Source: Thermothielavioides terrestris NRRL 8126
Taxonomy: Eukaryota > Ascomycota > Sordariomycetes > Sordariales > Chaetomiaceae
DNA length: 64,000 nt
Reading direction: 5' to 3'
Assembly (NCBI RefSeq): GCF_000226115.1
Contig: NC_016458.1
Coordinates: forward strand, 5,056,001 to 5,120,000
Shown here: positions 32,961-54,323 of the stretch, piece by piece
Numbering within the stretch: the stretch's first letter is position 1
Layout of the letters: every line of letters starts with the position of its first letter
Program-made: the position numbers and the translations under genes
Notes under the pieces: model-generated
Told to the model about the DNA's origin: nothing
Databases searched by the model: none
What the model saw: the letters and a program-made list of their open reading frames with translations, nothing else

Positions 32961-33049
32961 ATAAGGTCTTTAGACCCTAGTGCTATTGTGCTTCGTCATA
33001 GAGATGGCGTAGCGCAGGTGGTGGTTGCGGCACATACAAAAATAGATCA

Positions 33050-33778: not shown

Positions 33779-33952
33779 CCCTTTATTAGTTATTTAGGGA
33801 AAACCTATATAGGAAAAACCCTATTATCTTATTAAGGGAAACCTTATATAGAGAAAACCCTTTTATCTTTTATATTATTAAGGGAAACCTTATTCGGAGA
33901 AAAACCCTTTTATCGTATTGAGGGAAACCGTATATAGAGAAAAACCCTCATT
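33779..33952. repeat. Tandem repeat of about 40-46 bp, four diverged units
   Basis: Units share the frame CCCTTTTAT...AAGGGAAACCTTATATAGAGAAAAA and differ by small indels and substitutions. The array lies between the copia RNase H end (about 33955) and the presumed LTR start (33637), so it is in the 3' untranslated part of that element. Within each unit AGGG/CCCT and AAGG/CCTT can pair, so a transcript could form short hairpins. Confidence 0.65.
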
Positions 33953-33954
33953 AT

Positions 33955-35971
33955 ACAAGCCGAATATTTTTCTTCCACTGTTCTAGCTATGTAATAGGTA
34001 TTGTTTTTATAAGAGAATCTACGAGATTTTCTTTTGAAGGAATATATTTTATTTGAATCTCGTTATTTTCTAGCAGTTCTCGAATAAAGTGATATCAGAT
34101 ATCAATATACTTGGTTCTCTTATAAAATTCAGGGTTATTAGCAAGTTTTATAGCGCCAGTGTTATCAACTAGTATAAGAGGAAGTTGTTTTGGAATAGGT
34201 ATAGAAAGCTCTCTTATTATATAGTTAAAACTGTTATATATATATAATGCCTCTTTGCAAGCATTAGCCAAAGCTATATATTCTGCCTCTGTGGTAGAGG
34301 TTGCAACGGTTTTCTAAAGAGTACTACTCCAACTTATAGTGTTATTAGCGAGCATTGTTATATAACCAGTTACTGATCGTCTAGTATCAGAGCAGCTTGC
34401 CCAGTCAGAGTCACAGTATATTTTTAATATCAACTCTTTTATATTAGAGCAGTTATAGAGTATTCCTTCCTCTAGGCAGTTATAAAGGTATACAAAGATA
34501 TCATCAACAGCTAGGAAGTGTTCCTTTGCTAGATTTGAAGCGTATTTAGCACACCTTTGTATAGGATAAGCAATATCAGGGCGCGTTTTAACTGCTAAGT
34601 ATAGTATTGAACCAACGTATCGTTGATATTCAACAGTCTCTTTATAGGTGGCTTGCCCATTATTTTTATACAGCTTTATATTTCGAGTTGGACTCTTTCT
34701 CAGTGGAAGTCCCTCCTTATTATATTTCTTTATTATATTTCGAGTATATTTTTCTTAGTAGAGGAGGAGGGTTTTATTTCTCTTATTTATCTTTATTTGT
34801 ATACTAAGAAAGGTATTTACTTCGCCAATGTATTTGAGCTCTATATTCGTAGAGATCTTTTCTAATATATCCTTTATCTACTTATGATTTGGGCCAGTTA
34901 TTATTAGATCATCTACGTAGCAAAGCAGTATCATCTTATAGTTATAGTTTATAAAGGCTCCTTCGTCATATGGTATTACTTTGAAGCCAAGTTTATTTAG
35001 GATATTGGAGAGGTATTTATACCAAAGCCTTGGTGATTGTTTTAGATCGTATAAGGCCTTTTTCAGTTTAAGGCACTTCTTATTTTTATCGAGGTCGTTA
35101 TAAAAGCCTTGTAGCAGAGCAACATATATATCAGTATCAATATCTGCGTGCACAAAGGCATTTTTGACATCAAATTGGTGAAGTGTCTAACCTAGGGCAG
35201 TGGCTAAGACAAAGGTTATACGATATATCTTAGGACGGCATACTGTAGAGAAAGTCTCTAAGTAATCTAGTCCTTCTATTTGTTTAAAGCCTTGTACTAC
35301 CTATCTAGCCTTGTATTTTATTATATTATTATTTTAATCTATCTTCAACCTATATACCCAATAGGCACCAAGTGGTTGTCTATCTTTAGGAATATCAACA
35401 ATATCCTAAGTATTCTTGTCGACGAGCTTAGATATCTTAAGCTTCATTGCCTTAGACTAGTTATTAGCGTGGGGACCAGTTATTGCTTGGTTATAGCTAT
35501 TCGGCTCGTTATTCTCTTCTTTTATTAGAAATATATCTAGATATTTATCTATTATCTGTGTACAGTGGTGTATTTTTTGGAATTGTTTATAATATTGGTC
35601 TTCTTTGCGAGAGATTTCAACGACAAGCTCTTTATCGTTATCTTTATTATTATTATTATCAGTATCTTGTATAGCTATAGTAGAGGAGTTTATACTTGCA
35701 GTCATTAACCTCGTTATTATTCTTAGATTTCTCTCAACTGTATTATCCTCTTGTGTTTAAGGTTGAGACTAAGCCAAAGTCTTATTTTGAGAGTTATCTA
35801 GAGTGTTATTCTAAGAGTTATCTAGTATTTCTATATCCAAGTCTGTAAGTTAGTTATCTATCTCTTTATTTTTATTATTAAGCTCTTTATTAGGGAATTG
35901 GCCTTCGAGTATTTTAATATCACAGGTCTAGAAAGCCCGTTGTTTATTTGTGTCAAAGACTTTATAGATAT
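33955..35971 (-). mobile_element. Ty1/copia remnant: integrase tail, reverse transcriptase, RNase H
   Basis: The minus strand carries an almost readable copia reverse transcriptase. Landmarks in order: NIYKVFDTNKQRAFQ (end of integrase, near 35.9 kb), a Gln/Asn-rich linker, VKNAFVHADIDTDIYV, LKKALYDLKQSPRLWYKYL, the catalytic YVDD in LLCYVDDLIITGPN (near 34.92 kb), RPDIAYPIQRCAKYASN, YCDSDWASC and ATSTTEAEYIAL of RNase H, and YIPSKENLVDSL near 34.05 kb. Only a few stops interrupt it (for example in YIDI*YHFIREL), so it is less mutated than the gypsy copy to its left. It is truncated on its 5' side by the 501-bp LTR starting at 35972. Gag, protease and most of integrase are missing here. Confidence 0.85.
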
Positions 35972-36472
35972 TGGATTAGGGTAATGGACTACCTAGATAT
36001 AGGGGACCCAGTTTTTCTGTTTTTCTATTTGTCTCAGAGCGTTGCATTCGTTGCCAGGGGAGGTCTAACCCTCTAGTCATATGTATTTAAGTGGGCTAAG
36101 CCCATCTTCTTCATCATCAAGCAAGACATTAAGCAGTTGTCAATACACGTTCGTTGACACTACGTTGGTAGTTCTCCTTCTTCTAGGAAGGCTGTTGAGC
36201 CTCTCCTTTTATTGTCCTACCTCTATCTAGACAATAGGCATCCGAGCTATTGAGCTCTAACCACATTCTTATTGTCCTTTCTTATATTTCCACTATATCC
36301 TACTAGACGTATCTAAGCTATGTATCTTCCTCTCGGAAGATAGCCTTCCTACTACTCGATACGTACTATCTTCATCCGTCTAGAGGGATACTACATTCCT
36401 TTAGAAGCTATCTTATATACCTAGTTCTAGGTGTAGTAGGGTAGGTTAGTATAGAGGTTTTATACTACTTCA
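35972..36472 (+). repeat. 501-bp LTR, 5' LTR of the plus-strand gypsy remnant
   Basis: Starts TGGATTAGGG and ends CTACTTCA (TG...CA). It is nearly the same sequence, with many C-to-T/G-to-A-type differences, as the inverted copy at 53819-54319, which has the same length. It lies immediately upstream of a plus-strand gypsy body, so it is read as that element's 5' LTR. Confidence 0.75.
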
Positions 36473-39400
36473 AATAGGGGCTCAATTAGGGAGGAGCTTA
36501 GCTCTATATCTAAATAGGACAATATAGACTACAAAGTCTTCTAAGATTATAGAACTATACAATACTATATTAATAGCTATATAACGACGATATAGCTGAC
36601 CTATTAAGGCTCTAGTACACCGATACTAGTATCTCTAGGAGACGTAGAAACCTATTGAGGCATATACGTTCTAGGGGTCTATTAAGACCTTGTCCTAGGA
36701 GACCTTCCTTTACCTAGACGGTATAGGGCATCGAAAAGATATCCTATTATCCTTAATACTTCGAAGATCTGTTGAGGCTTTGTCATTATCGATATAGCGG
36801 TCGTAAAACGTTAACCTAATCGAAAGACGACAGTTCTATCCTCCTAAGTAGAGATAAGGGTAGAATTTTCATCGATTGTCATTTTCTTCTCTAGTCTAGC
36901 TAAACTAGTTACAAAAACAATTAAGTATAGTAGCTATTTACAAGCTTCTGAGCTTAGGGCTATACCTTTACGACACTTAGCTCCTTCTAATAGTATATCT
37001 AGTACTATTTTATATTAGATACAAGGTCTTAGTATAGACGTTTACTTTTCTTCTTAAAAGCTATACTCTTATTGCTATTACACTAGTTGGGTTTAGTATA
37101 TTAGTTGCTAGGGGTATCTAAGTGATCTATAAAGAACCTATAGTTATCTTTTAGGGCCTTTAGACTATATATTCCAAAGGAACCTAGCTACTTAAGAGGT
37201 TTTCTTCCTCTAAATAGACGTTGAAGGAGTCGACATTCCTATAGAAGTATATATATCAGTCTTTTTATAGTCTATCAATATAGTTGTTGCCTTTCTTAAA
37301 GACGATAGCTAAACGCCTAATAACTAGACTCTAGCAATATATATATATATTGTCTATAGAAGCTTTAAGAATCCTATCGACCTCTATAATACTATTAATC
37401 CTAATATTAACCTCCAAAGGAGAGTCTAAGGATATATCTATCTTATAGCCTTTCTAAGGTATACTAAGCGAAGAAGACTTAGCCAAAGTAGCGTAGATAC
37501 CCCTTCCGTCTTCGCTAGATACCTCTACTCCACTTATCTATATAGAGGTACCTATAGTAACACCTTCTAGTCTCTCTAAAGCTAAAGCTCTAAAGAAGAT
37601 AACTAAGTACATTCTTACTACTATACTTAGCATAACCTTTCCGACCCTAGTAAAGGCTAGCCTTTAGGGCTACTTCTCTAATTAGAATATTATACGATAG
37701 ATTAAGACCTTCGAGAAGATATATAAGGCTTATTAGGTCACTAATGATAAGACCTATATATATTTGTTCAAGCTTTAGTGCAATACTACAATCTAGCCTA
37801 TTATCCGTTATTAGGAGAAAAAGGACTAAGAGACCTAAGCTACTTTTAAAGCTAAGTTCCTAAAGCGTTAGAAGGACAACGATCTTAAGCAATATAGTAA
37901 TAGAGGTTACCTTTGTAATCTAATCGAAGGGAGATGCTAGCTAGTTAACAAGGTTATCTACAACTACTTCAAGTTGATCGACTATATATACGCTATCACC
38001 TTTACCAAAGTTTATAAGGAGCTATAGTATATAATCGTTCTAACGATATAGTATATACTTAATTAGTAGATCTAGGTAGCTCTTAAGGACCGCTAGCGTA
38101 CCCTAAAGAAGGATAATAAGGACTCTATCTATACTACGAAGTAGGTAGACTTCCTTAAGTTTGTTTAGGATACTCTTTAGAAGGGTCTTAACGTAAAAGA
38201 CCTCTTCCTTAAGACCTATAAGCGTAAGATCGATCTATAGAAGTACTACTTACCTTTGGCCACGCCTACTGTCAAGACGACTCCTAAATCGTAGAAGTAG
38301 GAAGAGGAGGAGCTAAAGAAAGCTCTTATACCTACGCCTAACGATATCGACGATCTAGCTAATCAGCTCCAACGTCTATATATTTAGAAGTAGAAAATCG
38401 CTAAGCAGTTTAAACGGAAGATCGAGGCCCTCCGTTTATATAGAATCGATCTTATTTTTAATAAGATCGAGGTTCTCTAGATATATTTCTAGCAATAGCG
38501 GAGTCGCTTATAGGAGAGATGTATTAACTTCGTTACTAGTCTATATATTGATAGTCGTCCTTCTAGCTATAGTAGACCTATAAGTTCTAGCTATTGCTAC
38601 TATTACAGTGACTCTAACTATATAGTCCTTAAGTATATAGAAGCTATAAAAGCTATAGCTATAGGTCTAATATATCGCAAAGGTATAGACTATTGCCTTA
38701 GCGATAGGAGTAAGAAGGGCTATACACTAGCCGAGATAATCACCTTTACGAAGGTAGATATTGATAATATATAAAAGGTTAGTAAGATTAGCTAGCTTAT
38801 TCTTATATATATAGCCTATTGCCTACAATATAATAGCTACCCTATATACTAAGCTTATTACCGTAAGTATAAGTGCCTAAATAGTTGCTCGTTCAAGCTA
38901 GATATATCCCTAGTGCTAAACAAGCACTACCTCTAGTAGCCTAAGCTATATTAGGAGCCTACAACCGTCTAGACGACGATCAATCGTCTTATATACAAAG
39001 GGGAGCCTAAGCTTACCTCCACCTTCTATTATATAGCGTCTAATCAGTTGTCGTTTTATATAGTCCCGTTAAAGGGAGGTTATATCTTAACTTAGAAGGT
39101 TGTCCTACGACCTACGCTAAAGGCTAACGAATTCCGCCGACTACCTCTTCCTTTCTCTAACTAGACTAAGGGGGAAGCTAAGGAGGAAGTAGACAAGGAA
39201 ATAGAGACTATACTTCAGGGTATACCGCCTACTAAGCGTTGGTTTACTAAGGACGAAAAGGAAGACGATATCTAGATAGACGATACTCCTATACCTTTAG
39301 CGGAGCCTCCTTATATAACTATCTTTAAGAACCTAGTTATAGCGAATTATATAAAGAAAGAGGAGCTATAGTCTAAGTCGCCTATACCAAAGGTTGCTAT

Positions 39401-42400
39401 GTTACTTTTGTATATAAAGGATATAATCTATACTACAATAAAAGCGAAGACTAGTCTAACCTTTAACAACTTAGTCTATATCTCGTCTAAGTACAAAGAC
39501 GCTCTAATTATATATCTATAGAGCATTTCCACCAATGTCGAGGTTATCGACTATAAGGGGTCCAGTGTTCTTAAGCCTAATAGACTAGCTATTGTATTAA
39601 AAGATATAGGGGTCTATATATAGGCTCTATATACCAATGTAAATATATTTAGTAGCCTTTGCTCTAGCTAGACCAAGATGGTTTTAGTAATTTTTAGAGT
39701 TACTAAGGACAGTGTATAGGGCATCTGTATAGGAAGCCTCTAGGAGCACTAGATTTATAAGAGTCTACCTAGAGACGTTGACGATTGTATCTATACTCTG
39801 CTTTAGAAGTCTATCTTAACGCTTTTAGTCTCAGAGTATATAGAACTTAATATAATAATAAGAGTATAGTCGTTTCCTACTCTATATATCTAGTTTAAGA
39901 AAGATTATTATAATAAGTATCTTACTCTAATCGACTCTAGTTCAAAGTATAACTATATCTTAATAAACGTCGTCGAGAAATATACGTTACTATATTAGTC
40001 TACTAAGGTCGTTTCAAAGGGTCTTTATAGCTTAGTACTATTCCTTAGAGAGATCTAGGTCACTCTTTACCTAGGTAGAGTTAGCATTAACCTTCACTTC
40101 TTTATAACTAAGGACACCGCTAGTAAGTACAAAGTAATTCTTAGTATACTGTTTATTAAGGATATAGCTCTAACCTTCGATTACTGCAATAGCAATCTAA
40201 TTACTACTAATCTGCTTATAGAAGGAAAGATAATCTAGATATATATCATCTCTAAGAGGATTGCCTAGCGGAACTACCTACTATCTCTAATGTAACTAGC
40301 CGTTTAAGAACAATTCTAAGGATTGACAAAGAGTTTTAAAAGAATCCTTGACTAGGTAGAGATAGAGGAAGGCGAGGCTGTCCTCAGTTTCCTCGATAAT
40401 AATGTAGATAAAGCAGTTTTTCATCTTGTTTTATAGAAGTCCTATATACTGCTCTTTAGCACTCTTTTTCATATTGTACATTCTTATTTTTTATCTTCTC
40501 CGTCTAGACGGACGAAGATTGAATTATTATCTTATTTAAGAGGGAAGAGGGGGACCCTAGTTAGAAGCCCCTTTTCTAACTAGAGGTTAAGGTAGAGATT
40601 TAAATATAAGGTTAGACGTACTTTAAAAACGTTTATACTCTAGAAGAATATTATAAATAAGGTTCGACTAGTCGATTTAGCACTATTAGATAGCTCTACG
40701 CTAGAGGGAGATCTGTTATAGCGAGAAAAGCGGCTTATAAAGGCTAAGGTAAAGATATAGTTTAAAAAGGAATAGAACGATCTTATAGTCCCTTGTTTCT
40801 TAAATCTTAAGCTAGGCTCAAGGCTTACTAAGGAGTATCTTTAAGCAATACTCGCTACTATAGATAGGTTCCTCAATAAGCTAGAAAAGGAGATGTTCAC
40901 TAAGATCTTATAAAACTAGGAAGCTATACTTATATAGGATTTCACTAAGTATAGGCGTATCTATAAGGATATTGTCCTGCTCTAATACATTAAGACTATC
41001 CTATATAAGGCCTAGCAGAGTAAGTCTATTCTAATTCCAAAGCTACTAATATAGAAGGTCATTGATCTACTTAGAGAGAGGTAGATATATAGGATTATTA
41101 AGTATAGCTATATAAGCTATTATAATAACTAGTTCCTTATTCTTAAGAAGGATAGTAGATTATAGCTTATTAATAATATTTAAAAGGCCAATGCTATAAC
41201 GATCTACAACGCTTTCGTCCTACTTGCTATAGAGGAATTTAATAAGGACTTCGGTAGCTATAAGCTAATATCTCTCCTAGATCTCTTCTCTAGTTACAAC
41301 TAGGTCAATCTCAATAAGTAGAGCTACGATTTAACAACCTTTTCGACGCCAATTAGTCTCTTCTATATATATACGTTGCTAATAGAAGGTATAAATTCTA
41401 TTGCCTAGTTCTAGCAAGCTATAACAACGATCTTTAGTAACCTTATCCCAGATGTTTGTTAAGTCTACCTAGACGATATTATAGTAAAAGATCTTTAATC
41501 TAATTATAATAGCTATCTAGATAGAAGGAGATATTGCAAATTTATTGTCAAATATCTTAAGAATATCAATATAGTATTGCTAAATATAGAGCTAGTAGGT
41601 ACGACTATTACTATAGTAAAGTCGAAGTGGGTATAGCCGAAAGCGGTTTTACTTAGTTATCTTTGTATACCTAACGAGCGCCTTCCTAAGGAAGTAAAGG
41701 TGATTAAGATAAAGGAGTAGAAGACCTATTCTAACATTAAAGAGGTATATATCTTCGTTGGAATAGTCGGATACTACTAGATCTAGATCAAAGGCTTTAC
41801 AATTATTGCAATTCCTCTTTACACTCTAATAAAGAAGGATGCTAAGTAGACTTAGGGGCCTACTAAGCAGAAGGCAATAGATAAGCTAAAGGAGAAAATC
41901 ACTACTACTCTAGTCTTTACAACGCTTATCTATAGCGATCTACAATATAGTATAATCTTCCTAATTTACAACGCTAATATCCTTAGCTAGGGAGATATAC
42001 TCGAGTAGGTCGGTCCCAATAATAAGAAACACCTATATAGGTTTAAGAGCAGTATCTAGTTAAAGGCAAAGAAGCGGTATAATACTATAAAGAGAGAGCT
42101 AAGGAGGCTACTCTTCTTTCTAAAGCGTTTTCGCCACTACCTTTTTTAATATACATTTCACTATAGAGACTGATACTCTAGTTCTAGTCTATTAGCTTAA
42201 TAGTGTTATAAGCGATGTTCTAGGTACTTTTATAATACACTAGATTGCCTAGATCCATCTATTTGACTTTAAGGTTAAGTATATCCTAGGCCCTAAGAAC
42301 GTTATAGCCAACGTATTGTCCTATAAGCTACCTAGGCCCTCTAACTATATAGAGAAGGAGTTGGAGGAGGACATCGACGACTAGGTCGACGCCTAAATCT

Positions 42401-42474: not shown

Positions 42475-43068
42475 TGTCAGGAGCGGGGGCTCCCAGAAGG
42501 AAGGGGGTATACGTTGAAGTGACGGAGTACGAGCAAGGCACAAGCAGAGCACGCGCTACAGGGTAGCTACAGGTAGGGGGGTTGCGGGTGGTTGCATTGA
42601 ACGCTGGCCTCTCCCACTGCCTGTGGGTTCCATCCTCCTTATTTCTCCCATCCTGGCCCTCGATCTTCCTCCGCATCGGCCAGCCTCCATTCCTGAGCTC
42701 GCAGATCCTTTCCTGGGCCATCCTGTGGCGCCTGCATAGCTCCCTGAGTGCGCCCAATCCGCTCTGCTGCCGACCCAATGTCTCAGTTCCCCGCACTTGC
42801 TCAGCCTGATGCCCCGCACTTCGCTCAGCTCTGTGCCCCTCCGATCGCTCCTCCGGGTGGCTCGCGTGATCTGGGCTACTGACGTGCGCCCTGGTGGCGC
42901 ACGCAGATGACCTGCGTGGTGCCCTGTGGTTGGCCAGGCTGCGCCGGGTGCCGGATGCAGGGCGAGGTGGTCGGGCCGAGGGTTGTGCCAGGTGCCGAGG
43001 CGCGTTCCGAGGGCTGTGCCGGGTGCCGAGGCGGGTCCCGCGGGTTAGGGTGGCTCCGGGGCATGACA
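42475..43068 (-). repeat. 3' LTR of the young gypsy element
   Basis: 594 bp, bounded by TGTCA...TGACA short inverted ends. By reading side by side it appears identical to the copy at 51314-51907. A full set of matching frames in both copies supports this. Confidence 0.95.
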
Positions 43069-43083
43069 GGGCCCTCCTCCTTC
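43069..43083 (-). promoter_or_regulatory. Polypurine tract of the young gypsy element
   Basis: On the sense (minus) strand the bases just before the 3' LTR read GAAGGAGGAGGGCCC, a purine-rich plus-strand primer site directly abutting TGTCATGC. A 7-bp hairpin (GTCCCTG/CAGGGAC) lies immediately upstream at 43087-43104. Confidence 0.7.
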
Positions 43084-43104
43084 AAGGTCCCTGACCCCAG
43101 GGAC

Positions 43105-44175
43105 TGCCGTGCCGTAGCCTGAGGGGCGCAGTGGTCGCGCCTCGGGGTCGTAGCCTTGCATGCCCGGCGGCGGACTGCGTAACGGTAGTTCGGGTGGCGC
43201 ATGCGCGGCTTACGATCTTGCCGCACGCGTGGTTCCTGTCAGTCGCGCTTCGGCCCGCGGCCTAGCCTGCCGGCGGCAGATCGCGTAGCGGTAGTTCGGG
43301 TGGCGCATGCGCGGCTTGCGATCTTCCTGCATGCGCGGCCTCCATCGATCCAACTGCTCCTCCGCATGCGCGATCCAGGGCGGCCCAGATGGAAGTGGCC
43401 TGTTCAGATCTGGGGCCGCCTATTCAGGGCCTATTCAGGCCCGAAACAGGAAGGCAACAATAGAGCTGAATAGAACTGAATAGAAGGTGTGCATGTTTGG
43501 GGTGACGGCAGGAAAGAAAAAGGGGTAAGGAGCGCACACTATGCGCGTCCCAAGCGCCTTCGCTGCGCACATGGAAAAGGGGAATTGAAACTTCTGCCAG
43601 AACATTGCGATGCAAGAAACACAGGATTTTGAGCCCTCCAAGCTTGGACCACCTTACCGAGTATATCTTCTGGGCTCGCGGCTCCCAGCCTTCCTTTCCT
43701 CCTTTTCTTCCTTCGCGCCATCTTCGTAAGTGCCCAGCCCACCTAAGTGCCCAGCCCACCACGACGACAATGCGATACTGGCCCGCGATTGCGATCGCGC
43801 GCGTGCCCTCTGCTTCCTCCTAACGCTCCCTCTGATCGCGCGCGCATGGCTGACTTCTTCGCTCTGCAGATGATTCGTTTTTTTTTTGGCGCTTCCGCCC
43901 TCGCCTCTCCTCGGTAGGTCGCCCCGCGATGGTTCGGTCGATTGGCAGGATGGCTCTCGATCGACAGGATGGCTCTGGCGATTCCAGCGTGCGAGGGCCG
44001 CGTGGCTGGCGAACTCGCTGCGCGGCCGGCGGGAAGAATGCAATGGTGCGCTGACAATGTGGCAGATTCAAATAACTCATTCATTTCCGGCCGCGCCTCG
44101 TGAGTGACCTTCAACGCTGAGATGTCGATGGATGGAGCAGGGCGGACGCTGCTGACACGCTGGGTAGAAGCAATC
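43105..44175. other. Leader region of the antisense gene, probably with spliced non-coding exons
   Basis: No convincing coding exon, but intron-like signals in the plus direction: GCTGACAATGTGGCAG (about 44052-44068), then 34 bases, then a GTGAGT donor at about 44101, and GCTGACACGCTGGGTAG ending at 44167. These match the branch/acceptor style of the downstream introns, so the mRNA probably starts near 43.7-43.9 kb and has short 5' exons. A short near-perfect duplication of a GTAGTTCGGGTGGCGCATGC segment occurs at about 43184-43203 and 43290-43309. Confidence 0.4.
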
Positions 44176-45511
44176 ATGTCAAAGTTGTTCTCGAGCCTGG
44201 GCTTCCGGCCCATCAACGCGGCGCCTGAAGAGCGCCCTGCTGGCGAGGCGGAGTCGCCCGCCGACGACGCGCCCGCGGCTCCCGCGGAGCGTGCGTCTGG
44301 CGCGGCGGCTGCGCCCGCCAACGACGACGAGAAGGAGGAGAAGAAGGAGGAGGACGAGGACGAAGAGATGGAGGAATCCGAGCCTCCGACTCCGCGCAAG
44401 GGCGGCTTCGGCCGCAAGAGAAGGGCGGTACGTAGAGAGGGCGCAGATGGGGAGCAACGCGATCGCTGACAGTGCGGCAGTCCAGTGACCTTGACTCGAC
44501 GCCCAAGAAGAGAGTCCCTGCGGGCGCTGCCCGCATCATTCCGTAAGTGCAGAGAGCGCAACCGAAGCGTGTCGGAGGCGCGGGCTGTGCGTGTGCTGAC
44601 AATGGTAGCTGCCGCCGTTGTGTGGCCAAGTTTTTCGACAGTGGTGGCGCCCCCGTCTGCCACCATCAAGCCGGTGCGTGTCTGCGTGTAGGTTGCGTGT
44701 TCGTTGCGTCTGACATGCTCGTAGGTTCCGGTTCGCGCTGCGTCGAGTGTGCGCAAAATAACCATACTTGCCCGGCTGTGAGTTGCCCTCCTCCTTCAAA
44801 GGCGCTGACCTCAGCGCCTTGAAGCCGAAACCTGCGTTTTCGTTGCGTGTGCGTTGCGCTGTTGCTGATCCCTCTGAAAAAATGAAGATTCATCCTACTG
44901 CCCTCGCCGCAGTTTGCGGCTTTATCGAAGCCCTCGACAAGAGGGACCACCCCGCCGCCGATGAAAAGGTAAGTTTTCAAGTGTCTCCCCTGCGTGCGCG
45001 ATGCGTGTACTGAGCGCGTTCTAGCCGGCTGCGCTTGTCCAGGGCGTCGTCGACGCGCTTGCGGTGGCCCGCGAGGCCATCAGCGGTGCCCCGGTCGCCC
45101 CCACCGCCCGCTCCGAGAACTTCTCGGAGCAGTGGGGGGAGGTGCGGAAGGCGGAGGGCGTGCTGAAGAGGCGCCTCCGGCGCTTCGTCGGCGCGCCCGC
45201 GCCGCTCCCACCTCCTCCCCCTCCTCCTAGCACTACGCTGGAGGAGGTGGTGGAGAGGCTGGCCAAGCTGGAGGAGCAGCAGAAGCGTGTGGAGGGGGTG
45301 GTGGTAAGTCTGCGAGTCCGTTGCGTCCACGAAGCGTGTGTGTGGCTAACAATCAAAGAATGAAATTTTGGTGGTGGTGAAGAGCTGGGGTCCGCCGCCG
45401 GAGGAGGGTGAGGAGGGGGAGGGGGGTAGCGAGGAGGGCGCTGATGACGCGCAGGTGGCCGAGTTCGTGACGGAGTCGATCCAGGGCTTGGAGAAGGACT
45501 TGGCGATGTAG
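44176..45511 (+). CDS. Antisense zinc-cluster-like acidic protein carried by the retrotransposon
   Basis: Seven exons join in frame: 44176-44427, 44481-44542, 44609-44673, 44725-44777, 44888-44968, 45025-45303, 45359-45511; 945 nt, 314 residues, ending in TAG. All six introns are GT...AG, and most show CTGAC/CTAAC-type branch sites close to the acceptor. The protein has an Ala/Pro/acidic N-terminus (Asp/Glu/Lys run about 48-70), a nuclear-localisation-like RKGGFGRKRR, a cysteine cluster C106, C109, C122, C132, C135, C142 (CX2C-X12-C-X9-CX2C-X6-C, a loose Zn2Cys6-like order), a helix-rich middle, a Pro run, a coiled-coil-like TLEEVVERLAKLEEQQKRV and an acidic tail. It runs opposite to gag-pol, its stop 114 bp from the pol stop. 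Introns kept in this strand would not be removed from the element's genomic RNA. Function unknown; DNA or chromatin binding is inference. The exon 5 acceptor is the least certain. Confidence 0.72.
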
Positions 45512-45625
45512 GGGGTGGCTGTTGGGTGGGTGGGTGGTTCTTGCGTTGTTTTTTTCTTTTTTCCTTTTCTTTTCTTTTTTCCTCAATTGAAGCGCCGCTT
45601 GGCGCCCTCGTTGCGTTCCCGCCGC

Positions 45626-48600
45626 TCATCGCCTGCGCCTGTGCTCATCTTGAATGCGTGCTTCGTAAGCGCGCAGTAAAGGCCCGTCATCAATATGCCT
45701 GCGCGGCTCCCAGGTGTTCTCCTCTGGCGGGTAGTTCTTCCACTTGATGAGGAAATACCTGTCGAGAGGTGGCCCTGCATGATCAAGAATGGCTTCGACC
45801 TCCCAATGCTGCTCCTGCGCAACGACCTGCACGCGATCGCGGTACGCGAGCGCTTCCTGCAGGTTGCCGTTGAACGGCTCGAGCATCGCAACAGAGAAAA
45901 CAGGGTGGAACTTGAACGCAGGCGGGAGATCCAAGCGATACGCCATCTTCTTGCTGCCCACATCAGCGATGATTTTGAACGGCCCGAGATACTTATCTGC
46001 GAGTTTGCTGCTCGGGCGCCGCTGGCGAATGTGCCTTGAATCAACCCAAACCCACTGGCCAACTCTGAAGGTCATGGGCGTGCGCTTGCGGTTGTACCAC
46101 TTCGCATAACCTTCGTTGGCTTGCACCAGGGCCTCGCGGATTCTTTCCCGATCCTTGGCGAGCTTCCTAGCACGCTCCTCCGCAGCGGGAACGTTGCTCG
46201 AGCTGTTCGCAAGCGGGTCTGCCGGATCGCGCGGGTGGTAGCCGTAAAGGAGGTATGCCGGGGTCGCCTTCGTAGCCGAATGCACTGAGGTGTTGTAAGT
46301 GTGTTCGGCCAGAGCCAACTTCTGCGCCCAGTCATGCTGCTCCCACGCGCAGTAAGTGCGCAGGTAATGCTCCAACGCCTGATTCTGCCTCTCTGTCTGG
46401 CCGTCAGTCTGAGGATGGTACGCAGTGCTCAGCTTTTGCGTGACATCCAAGAGGTCGCAGAGTGCGCGCCAAAACCCGCTTGTAAACAAGCTCCCGCGGT
46501 CGGAAACAATGGTCTGCGGCAGGCCGAAGGGTCGGTAGACGTAATCGAAGAAGAGGTGGGCAAAGGCGCCAGCCTGGAGCTGCTTGTGCGTTGCGATGTA
46601 GAGGGCGTACTTGGTAAACTTGTCGACGATGACGAGGACGGCGTCGCAGGGTTTGTGCGTGCGGGGGTCGATGGAGGTGGGCAGGCCAGTGACGAAGTCG
46701 ACCGTGATATCCTGCCACGGGCGCTCAGGAACCGGCAGCGCTGCGAGCTCGCCGTAAGGGCGGTGGGTTCTCGCTTTCGTGCGGCCGCATGTGACGCATT
46801 CCACCACATGTTGATCGATCTCCCTGCGCATGTCCGGCCAGTAGTAGTAGCGCATCAGGCGCTCGCGAGTCTTCCTGATGCCGCCATGGCCACCTGTTGC
46901 AGCGTTGTGGTAGCGCGCCAAAAGCGTGTGCCGCAGGGCCGCAGGCACATAGATCCTGCCGCTGTAACGCAGGATGCCATCGTCTCCGAGCTTCCACTGC
47001 CTGCGCATGCGAGCCGTCTTCCAAGCGCCCTCAGTCACCCAGGGATCGACTTCCTGTGCCTGGATTAGTTGCTGCTCAAAAGGCCAGCCTTCGTCCTCCA
47101 CCGGCTTCCTAGCAGCGGCAGCGACGTACGGGCGGTGATCAGGCGCACGCACGCCGCCAGCCAGACTGCTGCGGGCCGTCTGGTCCGAGGGGGGTCGCCG
47201 CCCAGGCCCCGGGTGGCCAGGTTCCCTTGCGTGTGTTTCCTGGGCCTCCGGGGAGCCACGCTCCAGCGGCGGTTTACCAGGTCCATCTGGGCCGCGGGTG
47301 GCACTTCCGTCCAAGCCGTGGTTGACCAGTGGAAAAGCGTCATCCAGGCGAGGCCTCTGCGCCGCCGCCTCTCCCTCGTCCCCAGCCGTGGGCTCACGGT
47401 GACGCTTGCCGCTACCCACGCGCTGCGAGACCTCCCGATGGCCCTCCTCGAGGCGCACATCAGGCGCAACACTCTCATCAAACTCCCGCTCACGCAGCTC
47501 ATACGCATCCTCCAACTCTCTGAGGCCCATACTGGGTCTCGGCCGCACAGCCAGAGTGACAACCCCAACCGTAGAGCGGTGCCCTGGCACATGGTCCTTT
47601 CCCGCAGCAATACGCTCCTCCAGGAGCCGTAGCAGCGGGTTCTCGGCGCCCTCGTCGCTGGGGCCTTCTGCCAGGTCTGGTCTTCGAGAGAGTCCGTCAG
47701 CAGGGTTCTGCGGGCCGGGGCGATACTTAATGACGAAGTCAAATTCTGCGAGCTCATCGCTCCAGCGCAGCTGCCGCGCAGAGGGCCGCTTCTTCGTCTT
47801 CATGTACTCGAGGTTTAGGTGGTCAGTGAGGGCGATGACGGTGGTCTGCGAGTACAGGAGGTAATGCCGCCAGGCACGAAAGGCGTCGACGAGCGCAAGC
47901 AGCTCCCCATCACCGGTGCCGTAGCGCGTTTCTTCGGGGCTGAGTTTGCGGGAGCGGAACGCAACAGGGTGCCACTGGCCCTCGAACAGTTGGGAGAGGA
48001 CCGCGCCGATGGCGAACTTCGAAGCATCTGCCTCAACGCGGGTCGGAAGGCTGGGATCGAAATGGCGCAGGACGGGCGCTTCCTGGAATCTGCGCTGTAG
48101 CTCGTGGAACGCATCGATCGCATCATGTGTCATCTCAAAGGTGCGATTGCCTCGGAGTAGGTCGGTCAGGGGGGCGCAGATCTTCGAGTAGTTGCGAATG
48201 AACCTGCGGTAGAAGCCAGTGAACCCAAGGAACACCTGGATGTCGTGAGCGCTGCGAGGTAGCGGCCACTGCGCAATGGCTTCAACGCGCGATGGTTCCA
48301 TCTTGATGCCCTCCGGGGTGACAATGAACCCGAGGAATTCGACTTCGCGCACATGGAACCGGCACTTGGGAAGGTTGACGTAGAGGTCGGCTTTTCGCAA
48401 CCGTTCCAAAACTTCGCGCACATGCCGCTCGTGCTCAGCTTCGTCGTTGCTAAAGATCAGTATGTCATCCAAATACACGATGCAGGTGACATCAACAAGG
48501 CCAGAGAGGGCATGGTTGATGTAAGTCTGGAAGGTTGCGGGTGCGTTAGCCAGGCCCATCGGCATCACAACAAACTCGAAGTGGCCGTAACGCGTGCGAA

Positions 48601-49600
48601 AGGCGGTCTTCCACTCGTCGCCCTCGCGCAGCCGGATCCGATAGTACGCATCCTTCAAATCGAGCTTGGTGTAGATCTTCGCGGAAGACAGGCGATCGAG
48701 GATCTCGCCGATCAGAGGAATGGGAGCGCGGTTCTTGCGGGTGATGTGATTGAGCGCACGATAGTCGACAACGAGGCGCAATTCGCCTCCCTTCTTCGGA
48801 ACGAACAGAATGGGCGCGCCTGCGGGACTGGTGGAAGGTCGGATCCACTGCTTCTCCAGAGCCTCCGCGAGCCACTTGCGCAGGGTTTCCAATTCCTTCT
48901 CGCTGAGAGGGTAGATCGGCCCCCATGGCGCAGTCGCACCGTCTTCGAGATCGATGCGGTGCTCAAGCGCAGTGTGGCGAGGCAGGGGAGGTCGATCCGC
49001 AGTGGAGAAGAGGTCTCGGTAGGCCTCATACACTTCCGGGAGCTCGGGAGTAGCAGGTTGCAAGCCAACGGTGGGCGAGTCTTCTTCGGCTGGGTCGTCT
49101 GGGTTGGCTGGGTCGGGCGGTTCGGCTGGGTCGGTGACTGGCACAAGCGCGGCAACAAGGAAAGCATTATCGCTCCAATCCTGCTTGGGCTCAACTTGCA
49201 AGCCAAGGTGGCGCTTCGAGTTCGGGTAAGTCCAAGTCTTTTCGTGGTAGTTGAAGAATGGCTCGGCCATCTCCATCCAAGTCTGGCCCAAGAGGATTGT
49301 GAATGGCTCGATATCTGCGACCACGAAGCGCAGCAGGCAGGTCTGGGAGTATCCAAGGTGGTCGGTGATGCGAACATGCAGGGGGCACACGCCGTACGTC
49401 AGAACAGGCACATTGCCAACAGCGGCAAATCCAGGGCACTGAATGAACTTGGTCAACTGCGAGTGCTCAGCTAGAAAGCTGCGACTGATCATGTTGTAAT
49501 CCGACCCAGTATCTAGCATTGCTACCGCAGGCTTCCAATTCTTATCCAAGCGCACGAGGACAGTGCTCTCGATCCGAGACGACCTGGGCCCCCCGAGTTC
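45626..49600 (-). CDS. pol: Pol polyprotein (protease, RT, RNase H, integrase, chromodomain)
   Basis: An open frame of 1324 residues counted from the codon after the gag stop, in the same frame as gag. Domains in order: aspartyl protease with LDTGSD (Asp30); reverse transcriptase with KLDLKDAYYRIR and catalytic YLDD (Asp378, Asp379); RNase H with VEADASKFAIG; a ~180-residue hydrophilic linker; zinc-binding HHCC integrase start (GHGGIRKTRERL... CVTCG); integrase core D968, D1034, E1070, the D-D-35-E spacing; a GPF-type module (KYLGPFKI); and a C-terminal chromodomain (WEVEAILDHAG, YFLIKWKNYPPEENTWEPR). The chromodomain places it among chromoviruses, which use it to target marked chromatin. There is no ATG close to the frame's beginning, so expression as a Gag-Pol fusion by readthrough of the gag TAG is likely. 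No internal stop. Confidence 0.95.
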   Translation of the reverse strand, partial: ELGGPRSSRIESTVLVRLDKNWKPAVAMLDTGSDYNMISRSFLAEHSQLTKFIQCPGFAAVGNVPVLTYGVCPLHVRITDHLGYSQTCLLRFVVADIEPFTILLGQTWMEMAEPFFNYHEKTWTYPNSKRHLGLQVEPKQDWSDNAFLVAALVPVTDPAEPPDPANPDDPAEEDSPTVGLQPATPELPEVYEAYRDLFSTADRPPLPRHTALEHRIDLEDGATAPWGPIYPLSEKELETLRKWLAEALEKQWIRPSTSPAGAPILFVPKKGGELRLVVDYRALNHITRKNRAPIPLIGEILDRLSSAKIYTKLDLKDAYYRIRLREGDEWKTAFRTRYGHFEFVVMPMGLANAPATFQTYINHALSGLVDVTCIVYLDDILIFSNDEAEHERHVREVLERLRKADLYVNLPKCRFHVREVEFLGFIVTPEGIKMEPSRVEAIAQWPLPRSAHDIQVFLGFTGFYRRFIRNYSKICAPLTDLLRGNRTFEMTHDAIDAFHELQRRFQEAPVLRHFDPSLPTRVEADASKFAIGAVLSQLFEGQWHPVAFRSRKLSPEETRYGTGDGELLALVDAFRAWRHYLLYSQTTVIALTDHLNLEYMKTKKRPSARQLRWSDELAEFDFVIKYRPGPQNPADGLSRRPDLAEGPSDEGAENPLLRLLEERIAAGKDHVPGHRSTVGVVTLAVRPRPSMGLRELEDAYELREREFDESVAPDVRLEEGHREVSQRVGSGKRHREPTAGDEGEAAAQRPRLDDAFPLVNHGLDGSATRGPDGPGKPPLERGSPEAQETHAREPGHPGPGRRPPSDQTARSSLAGGVRAPDHRPYVAAAARKPVEDEGWPFEQQLIQAQEVDPWVTEGAWKTARMRRQWKLGDDGILRYSGRIYVPAALRHTLLARYHNAATGGHGGIRKTRERLMRYYYWPDMRREIDQHVVECVTCGRTKARTHRPYGELAALPVPERPWQDITVDFVTGLPTSIDPRTHKPCDAVLVIVDKFTKYALYIATHKQLQAGAFAHLFFDYVYRPFGLPQTIVSDRGSLFTSGFWRALCDLLDVTQKLSTAYHPQTDGQTERQNQALEHYLRTYCAWEQHDWAQKLALAEHTYNTSVHSATKATPAYLLYGYHPRDPADPLANSSSNVPAAEERARKLAKDRERIREALVQANEGYAKWYNRKRTPMTFRVGQWVWVDSRHIRQRRPSSKLADKYLGPFKIIADVGSKKMAYRLDLPPAFKFHPVFSVAMLEPFNGNLQEALAYRDRVQVVAQEQHWEVEAILDHAGPPLDRYFLIKWKNYPPEENTWEPRRHIDDGPLLRAYEARIQDEHRRRR

Positions 49601-51262
49601 CTAGGCGGCGTTGGCGCTGCGGTCGCGCCCGAGCGGAGCAAGGTTCGGGTTATTCTGGGCGTTCGGGTTCAGAGGCTCCGGGCAACGAACAGCGGTGTGA
49701 CCTGTACGCCCGCAACGACGGCAGATGGCCTTGGGGCAGAATGTGGAGATGTGGCCAACTTCGTTGCAGGTGTAGCAAACTGGGCGCGACTTGGGCGCAG
49801 CAGCGGGTGCCGTGGCAGCATCTGGGGCGGGTTGCTGGGGTGCGGGCTGCGCAGGAGGAAGCTGGGTGGGCGCAGCCGCAGGCGGAACAGGCTGAACAGG
49901 CGGGGCAGAAGGCGGGGCAGGCTGGGCAGGAGGGCGGTTCTCGGGGCAGTTGGCGTAGCGATGGCCCTCCCTGCCGCAGGTGAAGCATCGAACGGGGCGC
50001 TGGAAGGGCGCGGGCGGGACGTTAACAGGGCGCGGCGGCTGCGGAGCCGTGGGGGCGTTGTTTGACGAGCGAGGGCGATAGCGAGAGGTGCCGGCAATGC
50101 GCTGACTATGCTCGATACGGCGGGCGAAGCTCACGAGCTGCTGGAACGTAGCGGGTAACTGGGGGGAGCAGTTGAGGATGAAGCTGATCTCTGGGCGGAA
50201 CTTCGGCAGGAGGGTGACTATGCGGGTGGGTTCATCCCACTTCGAAGGCATGTCGGCGATTACGCTGGTGAACCGTTCAACGAACTCCGGGACGGTCTCG
50301 TCTTCGCGCTGTGCGAGGCGCTCAAGCTCCGAGGCCGCACTGAAGGCGCGCGAATCGGGATCAGATAGTTCGTTTTGAAGGAACGCAACGAACTCGCCCC
50401 AGGTGATGGCCGAGAGACGAAAGTTAGGATCGGCCTCCTGCTCCTGGACATACTTCACCCAGGCGTTCTTGGGCGGGCCTCGGAGGCAGCTTGCCGCGTA
50501 CGCAACGCAGTCGCTACCATCGAGCGAGTAGCCCATGAGCTGGAAGTTGGTGCGGCAGTCGTACAGGAAGGCCCGAAGCGAAGAAGCATCCTTGCCGCTG
50601 TACGTGGGGTGGTTCAAGCCAGCGGCACGCCAGAGGGGAGCTCCCGCAGCGCTGGGAAGGATCGGCGAGGGCGCAATAGGAGCGCTGAACTCAGGATTGG
50701 CAGCGGGCGGAGGGGCATCGATGGCAACAGACGCGGCCACAGGTGCGGCCACAGGTGCGGGCGCAGGCGCAGCGGCCACGGGCGCAGCCTCAGGCGCGGC
50801 AACAGGCGCAGGAGCAGGTGCAGGAGCGGGTGCGGGCGCAGGCGCGGCAACAGATGCAGCCGGCACGGTGGTATTGGCGGTCTGGGCGGCAAGAGGGTCG
50901 GAATTCGAAGAGGTGGCGCCCTCGGCAACATGCGCAAGCTGGGCATTCTGGCGCAGGAGCTGCGCATGCTGAGCTCGCAGTTGGAGGATAGCTTGACGGC
51001 GGCGCTCGAGAGCGATCTCAGCGCTCAGACGGCGCTCTTCCTCAGCAAGGTCGCGCTCCTGGGTGGAGAGCAGGGGGTCGATAGGCGCTGCACGGGAGCC
51101 GTTCAGATCAATCTGGGCGTGCTGGGAGCTCTCGCCCATGGTGGCGTCAGGCGCAGGCGGTGCGGAGAGGGTGTACGAAGAGGTCGGATCGGTGGAAAGT
51201 GCCTGAGATTGCGAGGGTGCAGGGCTCTGCTCGAGCGCAGCGCGGGCGCGGGTCTGGGCCAT
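49601..51262 (-). CDS. gag: Gag polyprotein with three CCHC zinc knuckles
   Basis: A 553-residue frame starting MAQTRARAALEQS, ending with TAG at 49603-49601. The N-terminal third is Pro/Ala/Gln-rich with a heptad-like stretch (RRQAILQLRAQHAQLLRQ). The central part is a retrotransposon capsid-like domain (AFLYDCRTNFQLMGYS, FVAFLQNELSDPDSRAF, MPSKWDEPTRIVTLLPKF). Three CX2CX4HX4C knuckles follow at about 424 (CFTCGREGHRYANC), 497 (CYTCNEVGHISTFC) and 517 (CRRCGRTGHTAVRC), which bind the element's RNA. The start was chosen as the first ATG in the frame, 52 bases after the 5' LTR. Confidence 0.93.
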   Translation of the reverse strand: MAQTRARAALEQSPAPSQSQALSTDPTSSYTLSAPPAPDATMGESSQHAQIDLNGSRAAPIDPLLSTQERDLAEEERRLSAEIALERRRQAILQLRAQHAQLLRQNAQLAHVAEGATSSNSDPLAAQTANTTVPAASVAAPAPAPAPAPAPAPVAAPEAAPVAAAPAPAPVAAPVAASVAIDAPPPAANPEFSAPIAPSPILPSAAGAPLWRAAGLNHPTYSGKDASSLRAFLYDCRTNFQLMGYSLDGSDCVAYAASCLRGPPKNAWVKYVQEQEADPNFRLSAITWGEFVAFLQNELSDPDSRAFSAASELERLAQREDETVPEFVERFTSVIADMPSKWDEPTRIVTLLPKFRPEISFILNCSPQLPATFQQLVSFARRIEHSQRIAGTSRYRPRSSNNAPTAPQPPRPVNVPPAPFQRPVRCFTCGREGHRYANCPENRPPAQPAPPSAPPVQPVPPAAAPTQLPPAQPAPQQPAPDAATAPAAAPKSRPVCYTCNEVGHISTFCPKAICRRCGRTGHTAVRCPEPLNPNAQNNPNLAPLGRDRSANAA

Positions 51263-51302
51263 GGCTCGTCTCCGCCGGTTCAACTCCCTGAGGTGGGATA
51301 AG

Positions 51303-51313
51303 AGCGTTCAACT
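51303..51313 (-). promoter_or_regulatory. Primer-binding site, probable self-priming type
   Basis: The sense strand right after the 5' LTR reads AGTTGAACGCT. It does not begin with the TGG expected for a tRNA 3' end. Nine bases, TTGAACGCT (51311-51303), are the reverse complement of AGCGTTCAA in the LTR (sense strand 51444-51436), which could be the first bases of the transcript. This is the arrangement used by Tf1/sushi-type chromoviruses. Confidence 0.55.
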
Positions 51314-51907
51314 TGTCAGGAGCGGGGGCTCCCAGAAGGAAGGGGGTATACGTTGAAGTGACGGAGTACGAGCAAGGCACAAGCAGAGCACGCGCTACAG
51401 GGTAGCTACAGGTAGGGGGGTTGCGGGTGGTTGCATTGAACGCTGGCCTCTCCCACTGCCTGTGGGTTCCATCCTCCTTATTTCTCCCATCCTGGCCCTC
51501 GATCTTCCTCCGCATCGGCCAGCCTCCATTCCTGAGCTCGCAGATCCTTTCCTGGGCCATCCTGTGGCGCCTGCATAGCTCCCTGAGTGCGCCCAATCCG
51601 CTCTGCTGCCGACCCAATGTCTCAGTTCCCCGCACTTGCTCAGCCTGATGCCCCGCACTTCGCTCAGCTCTGTGCCCCTCCGATCGCTCCTCCGGGTGGC
51701 TCGCGTGATCTGGGCTACTGACGTGCGCCCTGGTGGCGCACGCAGATGACCTGCGTGGTGCCCTGTGGTTGGCCAGGCTGCGCCGGGTGCCGGATGCAGG
51801 GCGAGGTGGTCGGGCCGAGGGTTGTGCCAGGTGCCGAGGCGCGTTCCGAGGGCTGTGCCGGGTGCCGAGGCGGGTCCCGCGGGTTAGGGTGGCTCCGGGG
51901 CATGACA
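51314..51907 (-). repeat. 5' LTR of the young gypsy element
   Basis: 594 bp, apparently identical to 42475-43068. The promoter and transcript start for gag-pol should lie here; an AAATAAGG element sits about 40 bases upstream of the AGCGTTCAA segment at 51444. Confidence 0.95.
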
Positions 51908-53818
51908 TACTTATAGTTCTCTAAGTCTCTCTAGCTCTTTAGGAGAGGGGAGAGCTAGGTATTATAATATATCGTTGGCATTTAGCTAGTAATAATAGTA
52001 AACACTATATATAGGGTTTGAAATAGCTCTAGGAAAAGTATATCAATACCCTTCTAAGATATAGGGAAAAGCGTCTTGTTGCTATTGTAGGCTTCCTAGA
52101 GAGTAGGATCTAGGTGATTAGTCTAGAACCTTAACCCTAGGTTCTCCTACATTTCCAACGACCTAATAAAGAAAATATATATACGCTCTAGAGCTATACT
52201 CAGAGCTACATTCTTATATACTTTCGTAGAAGGCTTCTAAATCTATATACTCCTTCTTATAGGTATAAGAGGCTCCTTAGGTTTATATTGCGGTTTTAGT
52301 GCGCTTAGTGCTAATTTATTAGTCAAAGATTGCATTTACAGAGCTTTATGCCCTATAGGCTAAGCTTCCTACTCCGCTATATATTCCACTGTATTATAGA
52401 ATATATCCTCTTCCTTACTTTATAGAGCTAGGGGCTCTATAGGCGAAGATGCCTTGTACTCACTTTGCAGAGCTAGGTACTCTACTAGCGGAGAAGCCTT
52501 ATATTCGCTTCTAGGGGTAGCACCTTATAGGATAGCCTCTACTAGCCTAAGGTCCCTAGGTGCTCCACTAGTCTTTAGAAGAGTACTAGAATCCGAACCT
52601 CTATTTCTATTATTATCTTTATTTATAAGCTTTTTCTATAGCTAAGTCTATAGTTCTAGTGACATCTTAGAGGTCAAGAGTCTACTCTACGTCTACGCTT
52701 CCCCTACCCCTAAGTCTTGACCTAGTGGTATACTCTTATACTTAGGAACTGCAATAGTGATAGACTTTAGCGTTGGTCCTCTATACTCAAGCTTATAGAG
52801 TATTTAAAGAATCGACCTAGCGTCCTAAGTCTTTTTAACCCCCTTGTCTAGGTGCTCTACTACCTCTTTGACAATAGCAACTTCTTAAGCTAGAAGCTCT
52901 TCCTTATCTAGATAGTAAAAGGTCCTTTTATTAAACATTACGTTCCTTATTACAATGACCTTGTTGAGCTTAGGTACCTAAATATAGTAAATATTAGATA
53001 CTCTATACCTAACTAAGTACTTAATTCGCCTATATAGCCGCACTTTGAATTCTCTTTTCCAATGCCTAGCCTTATTCTCCTTATCTAAGGGGTATACTCT
53101 ATAGCTATATACAAAGATACTAGACTAGTTAGGGCGTAGGTCTACTATCAACGCTTAATAGAAGGTTGGCTCCTACTAGCGAGAGTAGTTTTTAAACTAG
53201 GAGTAGAGTACCTTGTTAGAGCTTCGAAGACTATAAGCATAGCTAGGCAAAATAGTATATAAGAAAGCTACTACCTTTATACCCTCTAGCCAAAGCTTTG
53301 TAGACAAATTTATATTAGTAAGTATCTTTATACTCTTTAGCTATAAGACTTGTCCTACCTACTCTAAAGCTCTATTTAGCTATAGAGTATATATTAGTAT
53401 AAGCTCCAAGTTGATACCTTCTTCGTATACCTAGAGCTAGTAAGCTGTTGGTCGGCGATCTTCTAGTACAATGACTCCTATATTGTTATCCTAGCAGATC
53501 TTATAGACGTTAAGTCCCTACTACCGTTTAACCTAATATTTAAAAGCTCTAACTATATTAAAGAGCTTGGTTTAACCCTTGTTAAAGAGTGTAAAAGCCT
53601 AGATCCTTCTATTGTACTCGTTTTTAATTGTAAGGAAGTACTAGGATTCGTTAAACCTAAAAGGGAATAAGAAAAGGTCCTAAGAGATACGCTAGAACAG
53701 GCGTAGAGTGCGATACTCTATTTTATAAAGTATATTGTACTCCCTAGCGTACAACAGAGTATATACCTCGTATTCGATCATTAGCGTTCCCTAGATCTTA
53801 ACGTTCTTAGCGCTCTAC
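51908..53818 (-). mobile_element. Second Ty1/copia remnant, integrase part
   Basis: The minus strand reads a mutated copia integrase: YNRRIQAFTLF, a segment ending in the AYQLWVYEEGI type, IYTPQLNRASE-like, TKLWLEGIKVVAFLYTILPS, LRPNWSSIFVYSYRVYPL-like and RVSNIYYI*VPKLNKVIVI, with TAG/TGA in Gln/Trp positions. It stops at 51908, where the young element begins, just as the reverse transcriptase region should start. Its upstream half continues beyond the solo LTR at 53819-54319. Confidence 0.75.
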
Positions 53819-54323
53819 TGAAATGGTGCAAAACCTCCACACCAACCTACCCCACCACACCTAGGACCAGGCGTACGAGATAGCTTCCAAAGGAATGCAG
53901 TGTCCCTCTGGACGGATGAAGATAATGCGTATCAAGTAGTAGGAAGGCTGTCTTCCAAGAGGAAGACACGTAGCTCAGGTACGTCTAGTAGGATATAGCG
54001 GAAACACAAGAAAGGACAATAAGAATATAGTTAGAGCTTAATAGCTCGGATACCTATCGTCTAGATAGAGGTAGGACAATAAAAGGAGAGGCTCAATAGC
54101 CTTCCTAGAAGAAGGAGAACCACCAACGTAGTGTCAACGAACGTATATTGACAACTGTTTGATGTCTTGCCTAATGATGAAGAAGATGGGCTCAGCCCAC
54201 TTAAATATATATGACTAGAGGGTTAGACCTCCCCTAGCAACGAATGCAACGCTCTGAGACAAACAGAAAAACAGAAAAACTGGGTCCCCTATGTCCAGGT
54301 AGTCTATCACCCCAATCCACTAC
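53815..54323 (-). repeat. Solo LTR (501 bp) with 4-bp target duplication
   Basis: On the minus strand the LTR runs TGGATTGGGG...CACCATTTCA (54319-53819). It is flanked on both sides by GTAG (54323-54320 and 53818-53815), a 4-bp target-site duplication. It interrupts the second copia element between its pre-integrase and integrase parts. It is the same family as the LTR at 35972-36472, in opposite orientation. Confidence 0.75.

Follow-up and report, generated by a model that had tools for sequence, protein, structure and literature searches.

The element and the predicted gene on its opposite strand

The window, the whole stretch of 64,000 nucleotides that was analysed (5056001-5120000 of contig C2), contains a Ty3/gypsy chromovirus of Thermothielavioides terrestris NRRL 8126 (Sordariales, Chaetomiaceae). 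The element occupies 42475-51907 on the minus strand and has the LTR pair, the RT-RNaseH-integrase order, and the C-terminal chromodomain of a chromovirus. The two LTRs of this copy are 594 bp each and identical. Placed between pol and the 3' LTR, on the strand opposite to gag-pol, is a predicted gene of seven exons (44176-45511, plus strand), which stands tail to tail with pol and is referred to here as the antisense gene. The element is laid out as follows:

42475-43068, minus strand: 3' LTR, exact 594-bp repeat with 51314-51907; ends TGTCA...TGACA
43069-43110, minus strand: hairpin and polypurine tract adjoining the 3' LTR, seen in the sequence
43069-44175, plus strand: region presumed, from its position, to hold the promoter and 5' UTR for the antisense gene
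45626-49555, minus strand: pol; Pfam matches RT, RNase H, H2C2, rve, SH3_Tf2-1, and Chromo
49601-51283, minus strand: gag; Pfam matches Retrotrans_gag and CCHC knuckles
51314-51907, minus strand: 5' LTR, exact 594-bp repeat with 42475-43068

The match to a protease in pol is weak (E 0.26), and NCBIfam, searched with gag and pol, returned for pol just IS481/IS3 integrase matches under the cut-off. A PPT-like sequence, GAAGGAGGAGGG, lies three bases off the 3' LTR, and a further, long polypurine run (GGAAAAAAGAAAAGAAAAGGAAAAAAG, 45549-45583, minus strand) is found on the element strand about 40 bases past the pol stop codon. No PBS of the TGG type, or of any tRNA type, was found directly after the 5' LTR (51283-51313). 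The LTR has, at its position 464 (element orientation), a stretch complementary to bases 3-11 past the 5' LTR, which suggests Tf1-like self-priming. A target-site duplication is not evident at the window copy (GTTAC on the left, TACTT on the right). AT-rich blocks at 26000-42000 and 52000-56000 flank the element, with 33-42% GC in all but one 2-kb step, and an 89% inverted repeat (35969-36472 and 53819-54322) lies within them. The window copy sits in an AT-rich repeat island that has probably been mutated by repeat-induced point mutation (RIP).

Exon-intron structure of the antisense gene

Joined, the seven exons give 945 nt that are open over 314 residues, with the stop codon at 45509-45511. 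This confirms the sequence-only reading that preceded our analysis, in which seven exons with GT-AG introns encode an uninterrupted 314-residue protein opposite to gag-pol. The gene model comprises:

44176-44427, plus strand: exon 1, acidic N-terminal region, then a basic segment; intron 1 sites the same in the public model THITE_117983
44481-44542, plus strand: exon 2, second basic (PKKR) segment; partly backed by THITE_117983
44609-44673, plus strand: exon 3, first Cys pair and third Cys; partly backed by THITE_117983; codon score -2.5
44725-44777, plus strand: exon 4, last three Cys (CVECAQNNHTC); frame kept in the L058 relic (see below); codon score -4.2
44778-44887, plus strand: intron 4, holding a hairpin on the element strand and the second copy of the polypurine-tract block
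44888-44968, plus strand: exon 5, from the gene model
45025-45303, plus strand: exon 6, probably helical region, proline run, and first part of the coiled coil
45359-45511, plus strand: exon 7, end of the coiled coil, acidic C-terminus, and stop

The introns measure 53, 66, 51, 110, 56, and 55 nt, and all six are GT-AG, with the donors GTACGT, GTAAGT, GTGCGT, GTGAGT, GTAAGT, and GTAAGT in that order. The branch sites had been described as conventional; this holds for five introns, which have sites of the CTGAC, CTAAC, or CTGAT type, and does not hold for intron 5, which has just CTGAG. Being antisense to the genomic RNA, the introns are unspliceable there and so persist through retrotransposition. 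THITE_117983, a public gene model named uncharacterised protein, lies on a RIP-mutated copy of the antisense gene (locus L014). Its intron 1 sites and intron 5 donor are identical to ours, its intron 2 agrees within a base, and its exon-4 part starts no later than the equivalent of 44730; the remaining boundaries differ from the seven-exon model.

An independent gene search over 43069-45625 was carried out by ad hoc dynamic programming, with hand-set donor, branch, and acceptor scores and codon log-odds from five long window ORFs (the gag and pol of the element and three ORFs assumed to be host genes). It chose the same ATG and stop as the seven-exon model, with five introns and a score of 52.5; the exact seven-exon model scores 45.2 in this scheme. 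Introns 1, 5, and 6 agree between the two. The search chose other splice sites in the middle of the gene and skipped exon 4, such that exons 3 and 4, both with negative codon scores, were not recovered as drawn. The mean score of 300 dinucleotide shuffles was 2.7 (maximum 8.5), the opposite strand scored 8.3, and six antisense-of-coding controls scored between 6.0 and 16.3, none of them with more than one intron. Fifty tiled window stretches, taken on both strands and including gene-bearing ones, had a median of 11.85 and a maximum of 116.8. The seven-exon structure exceeds chance.

GC-rich sequence yields many long ORFs, 57 of which in the window have at least 150 aa, and splice-like motifs in such a stretch could join frames by accident, in which case the true reading would be the 340-aa minus-strand ORF at 43743-44765 or none. 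The shuffled and antisense controls lie far below the antisense gene. GC by codon position is.71/.51/.79 in the antisense gene and.65/.45/.71 in pol; the two minus-strand ORFs that overlap the antisense gene show a shadow-like pattern (.59/.64/.67 and.55/.74/.65), and neither has a Pfam match. Together with the conservation of exon 4 described below, this makes a chance assembly very unlikely.

Features of the predicted protein

The acidic region, NLS-like segment, six cysteines, and coiled coil named in the sequence-only reading are all present in the translation, which comprises an acidic N-terminal stretch, the basic segments RKGGFGRKRR and PKKR, a cysteine module, a proline run, a coil, and an acidic tail. 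The coil (residues 243-274) is hydrophobic at nine of ten a/d positions and keeps a continuous register over the exon 6/7 junction at residue 264; two of 1000 shuffled proteins were as good. From these features, the six-Cys module probably binds metal and the coil probably dimerises.

The cysteines are spaced C-x2-C-x12-C-x9-C-x2-C-x6-C, an order that had been called Zn2Cys6-like. Zn2Cys6 proteins have the spacing C-x2-C-x6-C-x5..16-C-x2-C-x6..8-C, which differs: the antisense protein fits its second half alone. The profile search of zinc-cluster families proposed along with that claim returned no match at E<=10. DUF3716 (PF12511), a six-Cys fungal domain of similar order, has 13 matches in the genome, 10 of them over the cut-off and none at the element, and a profile built from eight of the 13 gives the antisense protein -1.4 bits. 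Pfam holds no family above the cut-off for the protein, and the search of solved structures with the Cys region gave nothing below E 1.2. HBZ is a spliced protein with an acidic N-terminus and a C-terminal zipper, and its bZIP consists of a basic region directly before a leucine zipper. An HBZ-like bZIP factor was rejected for the antisense protein, in which a proline run precedes the coil.

Protein searches (E<=1 among the 8000 candidates with the most shared words, and E<=10 among 1006 candidates) found just THITE_117983, and no homologue outside the T. terrestris genome. Searches of IMG/VR by pol, made with the single protein and with an alignment of seven members, gave no relative. At least 4849 pol relatives were found at E<=1e-50 among 8000 scored; the four best with more than 90% coverage, which come from 5-8 kb contigs, share 58-67% identity with pol over 93-99%. 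One of the two origins first suggested for the gene, capture of a host regulator, is not supported for a known regulator: DUF3716 fails, and there is no convincing host paralogue bar the small L058 relic. Two other loci tried as host paralogues, L059 and L062 (E 5.8e-4 and 0.07), were judged from their translations to be chance matches in unrelated frames.

Copies in the genome and repeat-induced point mutation

Across the genome (36.9 Mb, six contigs), exon 1 has 29 DNA matches. In a comparison of 5525 bases, five copies proved identical, and the ten LTRs of these intact copies, together with one further LTR on C1, are also identical; from the identity of both LTRs and copies, the five intact copies are recent. 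The further LTR (C1:6717642-6718235) has no second LTR nearby, as judged from 40 of 74 candidates scored, and is probably a recent solo LTR.

The other 24 copies differ mostly by C>T/G>A changes at CpA and CpG, that is, by RIP. All 236 of 236 differences in the gene region of L014 are of this kind. RIP has struck CpA most (122/229 sites in the lightly hit L014, 200/229 in L033) and CpG second (92/378 and 226/378 sites, respectively). Exons, introns, and pol are struck alike, and each RIP-mutated pol copy has dozens of stops, mostly TAG. Since these stops stem from RIP, stops in other copies are uninformative about selection on the antisense gene. The sequence-only reading had proposed to compare dN/dS from copy to copy and to read stops at the neutral rate in other copies as evidence against the gene; the former fails, as most differences are C>T/G>A changes made by RIP, and the latter is inapplicable, as RIP makes the stops. 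Differences that are not of the RIP type number 2 to 143 per RIP-mutated copy (in up to 5524 bases), with the highest counts in L037 (143) and L036 (102).

At least 35 matches to pol were found (35 of 685 candidates scored), of which 29 include the pol C-terminus and six are truncated. Exon 6 of the antisense gene lies within 1.5 kb of each of the 29 listed pol matches that reach the C-terminus, and the gene is present beside pol of the most diverged copies, L036 and L037, too. One RIP-mutated copy, L060 (C1:7504500-7512000), has a divergent block in exons 6-7 (window equivalent 45251-45444), which holds most of its private non-RIP changes and indels of net +15, a pattern such as recombination with another subfamily would leave.

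Selection on the antisense gene

Selection was counted on just those changes that RIP cannot make, by local alignment of 31 loci (L009-L037, L060, and L061). The changes common to L036 and L037, which probably predate RIP of both copies, comprise, for the antisense gene, 12 nonsynonymous and 6 synonymous ones, where 76% and 22% would be expected, and, for the part of pol compared, 0 nonsynonymous and 16 synonymous ones (gene versus pol, Fisher P=3.7e-5). By these counts, the antisense protein evolves faster than pol. With all non-RIP changes of L037 counted, later neutral ones among them, the gene has 17 nonsynonymous and 12 synonymous changes, and pol has 15 nonsynonymous changes and 3 stops against 28 synonymous ones; this difference is not significant (P=0.15). 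At sites common to at least two copies, the ratio in the gene is 15:9, while pol has 15 nonsynonymous and 32 synonymous changes and 1 stop. Of the private sites in the gene, 33 are nonsynonymous, 18 synonymous, and 2 stops, the corresponding numbers for pol being 27, 25, and 4; the changes confined to L060 are, for the gene, 17 nonsynonymous, 3 synonymous, and 2 stops. The 12:6 count is near neutral, and substitutions alone do not show purifying selection for the antisense gene as a whole.

Exon indels occur in seven of the 31 loci, where they sum to a multiple of three in each locus, and no net exon frameshift was found in any of the 31 (L020 and L061 are partly covered); the indels sit in triplet-rich stretches, where slippage by threes requires no selection. 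No non-RIP substitution was found in the 54 donor and acceptor positions scanned.

A lone GC-rich, diverged match to the antisense gene that has escaped RIP, L058 on C1, was found via protein search. Its DNA is 82% identical to window positions 44727-44792 (E 2.6e-13) and 69% identical to 44999-45091 (E 1.3e-4), and the matches lie at its positions 3038-3103 and 3109-3206. No LTR, gag, or pol is detectable near L058 in the 6.2 kb read. At its start, the match falls two bases short of the exon 4 boundary, and exon 5 gave no match in L058. Over 17 codons of exon 4, ten bases differ, at codon positions 1/1/8, and two residues differ where random placement gives 6.4 (P=0.0008), in a locus that was found via protein similarity, a route biased to conserved residues. 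As far as these 17 codons reach, the comparison shows exon 4 to be under constraint, with its coding frame kept. The ancestor of L058 may have been either a host gene that was captured or an older element.

These data bear on whether the gene serves the element at all. A gene of the host or of an older element could have been captured into the interval that separates pol from the 3' LTR and drift there near-neutrally as a passenger. The 12:6 count is looser than that of pol (significant for the changes common to L036 and L037, and not for all L037 changes), the un-RIPped L058 stands alone on C1 with no detectable element part in the 6.2 kb read, the introns are of the ordinary fungal type, and relaxed constraint would fit the counts too. 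Against a passenger stand the gene's place beside all 29 listed pol 3' ends, those of L036 and L037 included, the absence of a net exon frameshift in the scanned loci, and the strong conservation of exon 4 relative to L058. We consider a mere passenger rather unlikely. Fast change with a conserved core is frequent in accessory proteins in conflict with a host.

The product could also be irrelevant, and the antisense transcript itself could regulate the element through dsRNA or transcriptional interference. Passages of PMC7264820 discuss antisense transcription as a regulator of such elements, and the tail-to-tail arrangement with pol is consistent with such a role. An RNA role alone predicts neither the third-position bias of change in exon 4, nor codon usage at the level of a gene, nor a coil that crosses an exon junction, and appears improbable to us.

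A second hairpin-polypurine block in intron 4

Intron 4 contains, on the element strand (44786-44825, minus), a hairpin followed by TTGAAGGAGGAGGGC, and the same block stands before the 3' LTR (43072-43107, minus). By eye, the two hairpins differ at two stem pairs, with compensating changes. Relative to shuffled sequences, the intron 4 hairpin folds with a z of -3.1 (0 of 200 as good) and the 3' hairpin with a z of 0.4 (125 of 200 as good). The intron 4 block is a possible internal second plus-strand primer site; the phrase central polypurine tract, for fungal elements, is absent among the literature matches listed, in the portions of text that they give. A fast-evolving, element-encoded antisense nuclear regulator with six introns, of a family unseen elsewhere, whose intron 4 doubles as a cis-element of reverse transcription, is a combination that we hold to be unlikely as a whole.

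A probable accessory gene of the chromovirus family

The reading that we favour, with a probability of roughly 0.6, is that the antisense exons form a genuine gene of the chromovirus family, spliced and protein-coding, whose product is an accessory regulator of the element. The multi-intron antisense gene of the sequence-only reading is supported by its gene-like score, by its place beside every listed pol 3' end, and by selection on exon 4. A promoter between the 3' LTR (43069) and 44176 would drive plus-strand transcription towards pol, the transcript would end in a T-rich stretch ahead of the pol stop, and the six introns would be spliced out. The protein would then dimerise, bind metal, enter the nucleus, and regulate the element by way of its transcription, its chromatin state, or its integration site. 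On its predicted features, the likeliest product would be a small acidic accessory protein of the nucleus that the element itself encodes, that evolves rapidly, forms dimers, and binds metal.

The layout may be compared with that of Grande/Retand-type plant elements, of Boty from Botrytis, and of HTLV with its HBZ. The sequence-only reading knew of no fungal precedent, yet the gene brtn of Boty from Botrytis cinerea occupies the same place, antisense between pol and the 3' LTR (Zhao 2011, as described in passages of PMC7264820, PMC8365987, and PMC4227169). Boty also carries a CHROMO domain (stated in part of PMC4227169), such that the Boty-like elements of B. cinerea and Sclerotinia sclerotiorum, as these sources describe them, share with our element the layout, a filamentous ascomycete host, and a CHROMO-domain LTR carrier. 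The likeness is one of layout, by description: no Botrytis protein was found at E<=1 (8000 candidates) or at E<=10 (1006 candidates). A Monilinia transcript that resembles a truncated Pol plus BRTN is mentioned in PMC5987419.

The plant aORF-3R genes (Grande gene23, RIRE2, Retand, and PvRetro13) have the same place and orientation and are kept in most copies, according to passages of PMC7264820 and PMC11963269. There, the Grande product is given as nuclear and Retand TRP28 as predicted DNA-binding. Retand belongs to a non-chromovirus lineage (as placed in PMC11963269), unlike the carrier element here, the plant proteins have no Pfam domain in common with ours, and the word intron is absent from the main texts of PMC7264820 and PMC11963269. 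Both sources, where they touch on it, call the role of antisense accessory proteins unknown. HBZ of HTLV-1 is described in part of PMC11963269 as a nuclear protein from an antisense gene; it has a bZIP, whereas the coil of the antisense protein here has no basic region next to it and is accompanied by a six-Cys module, and the resemblance is no more than an analogy.

Spliceosomal introns also interrupt homing endonuclease genes that lie antisense in rDNA group I introns, as reported in PMC9548176. These, too, are antisense protein genes of mobile elements, but their carriers are group I introns and not retrotransposons. Crapaud of Podospora, also in the Sordariales, is a RIP-exposed chromodomain LTR element that is drawn in PMC10787394 with gag and pol ORFs only, and some fungal chromodomain elements have an additional ORF of unknown function, as mentioned in PMC2864245. 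Within the accessible text of the open-licence literature searched, no second fungal LTR element with a multi-intron antisense gene was found. The kind of gene is known; the protein family, the six introns, and the retention of the gene in a RIP-active host look new.

If transcribed and translated, the antisense gene would give a clear example, from a fungus, of an LTR retrotransposon with an intron-rich antisense accessory gene, and it would show how an RNA-borne element is able to carry a normal intron-containing gene. With five identical copies, many RIP-dead ones, and a sequenced host, the family offers a compact system in which the role of antisense accessory proteins may be studied.
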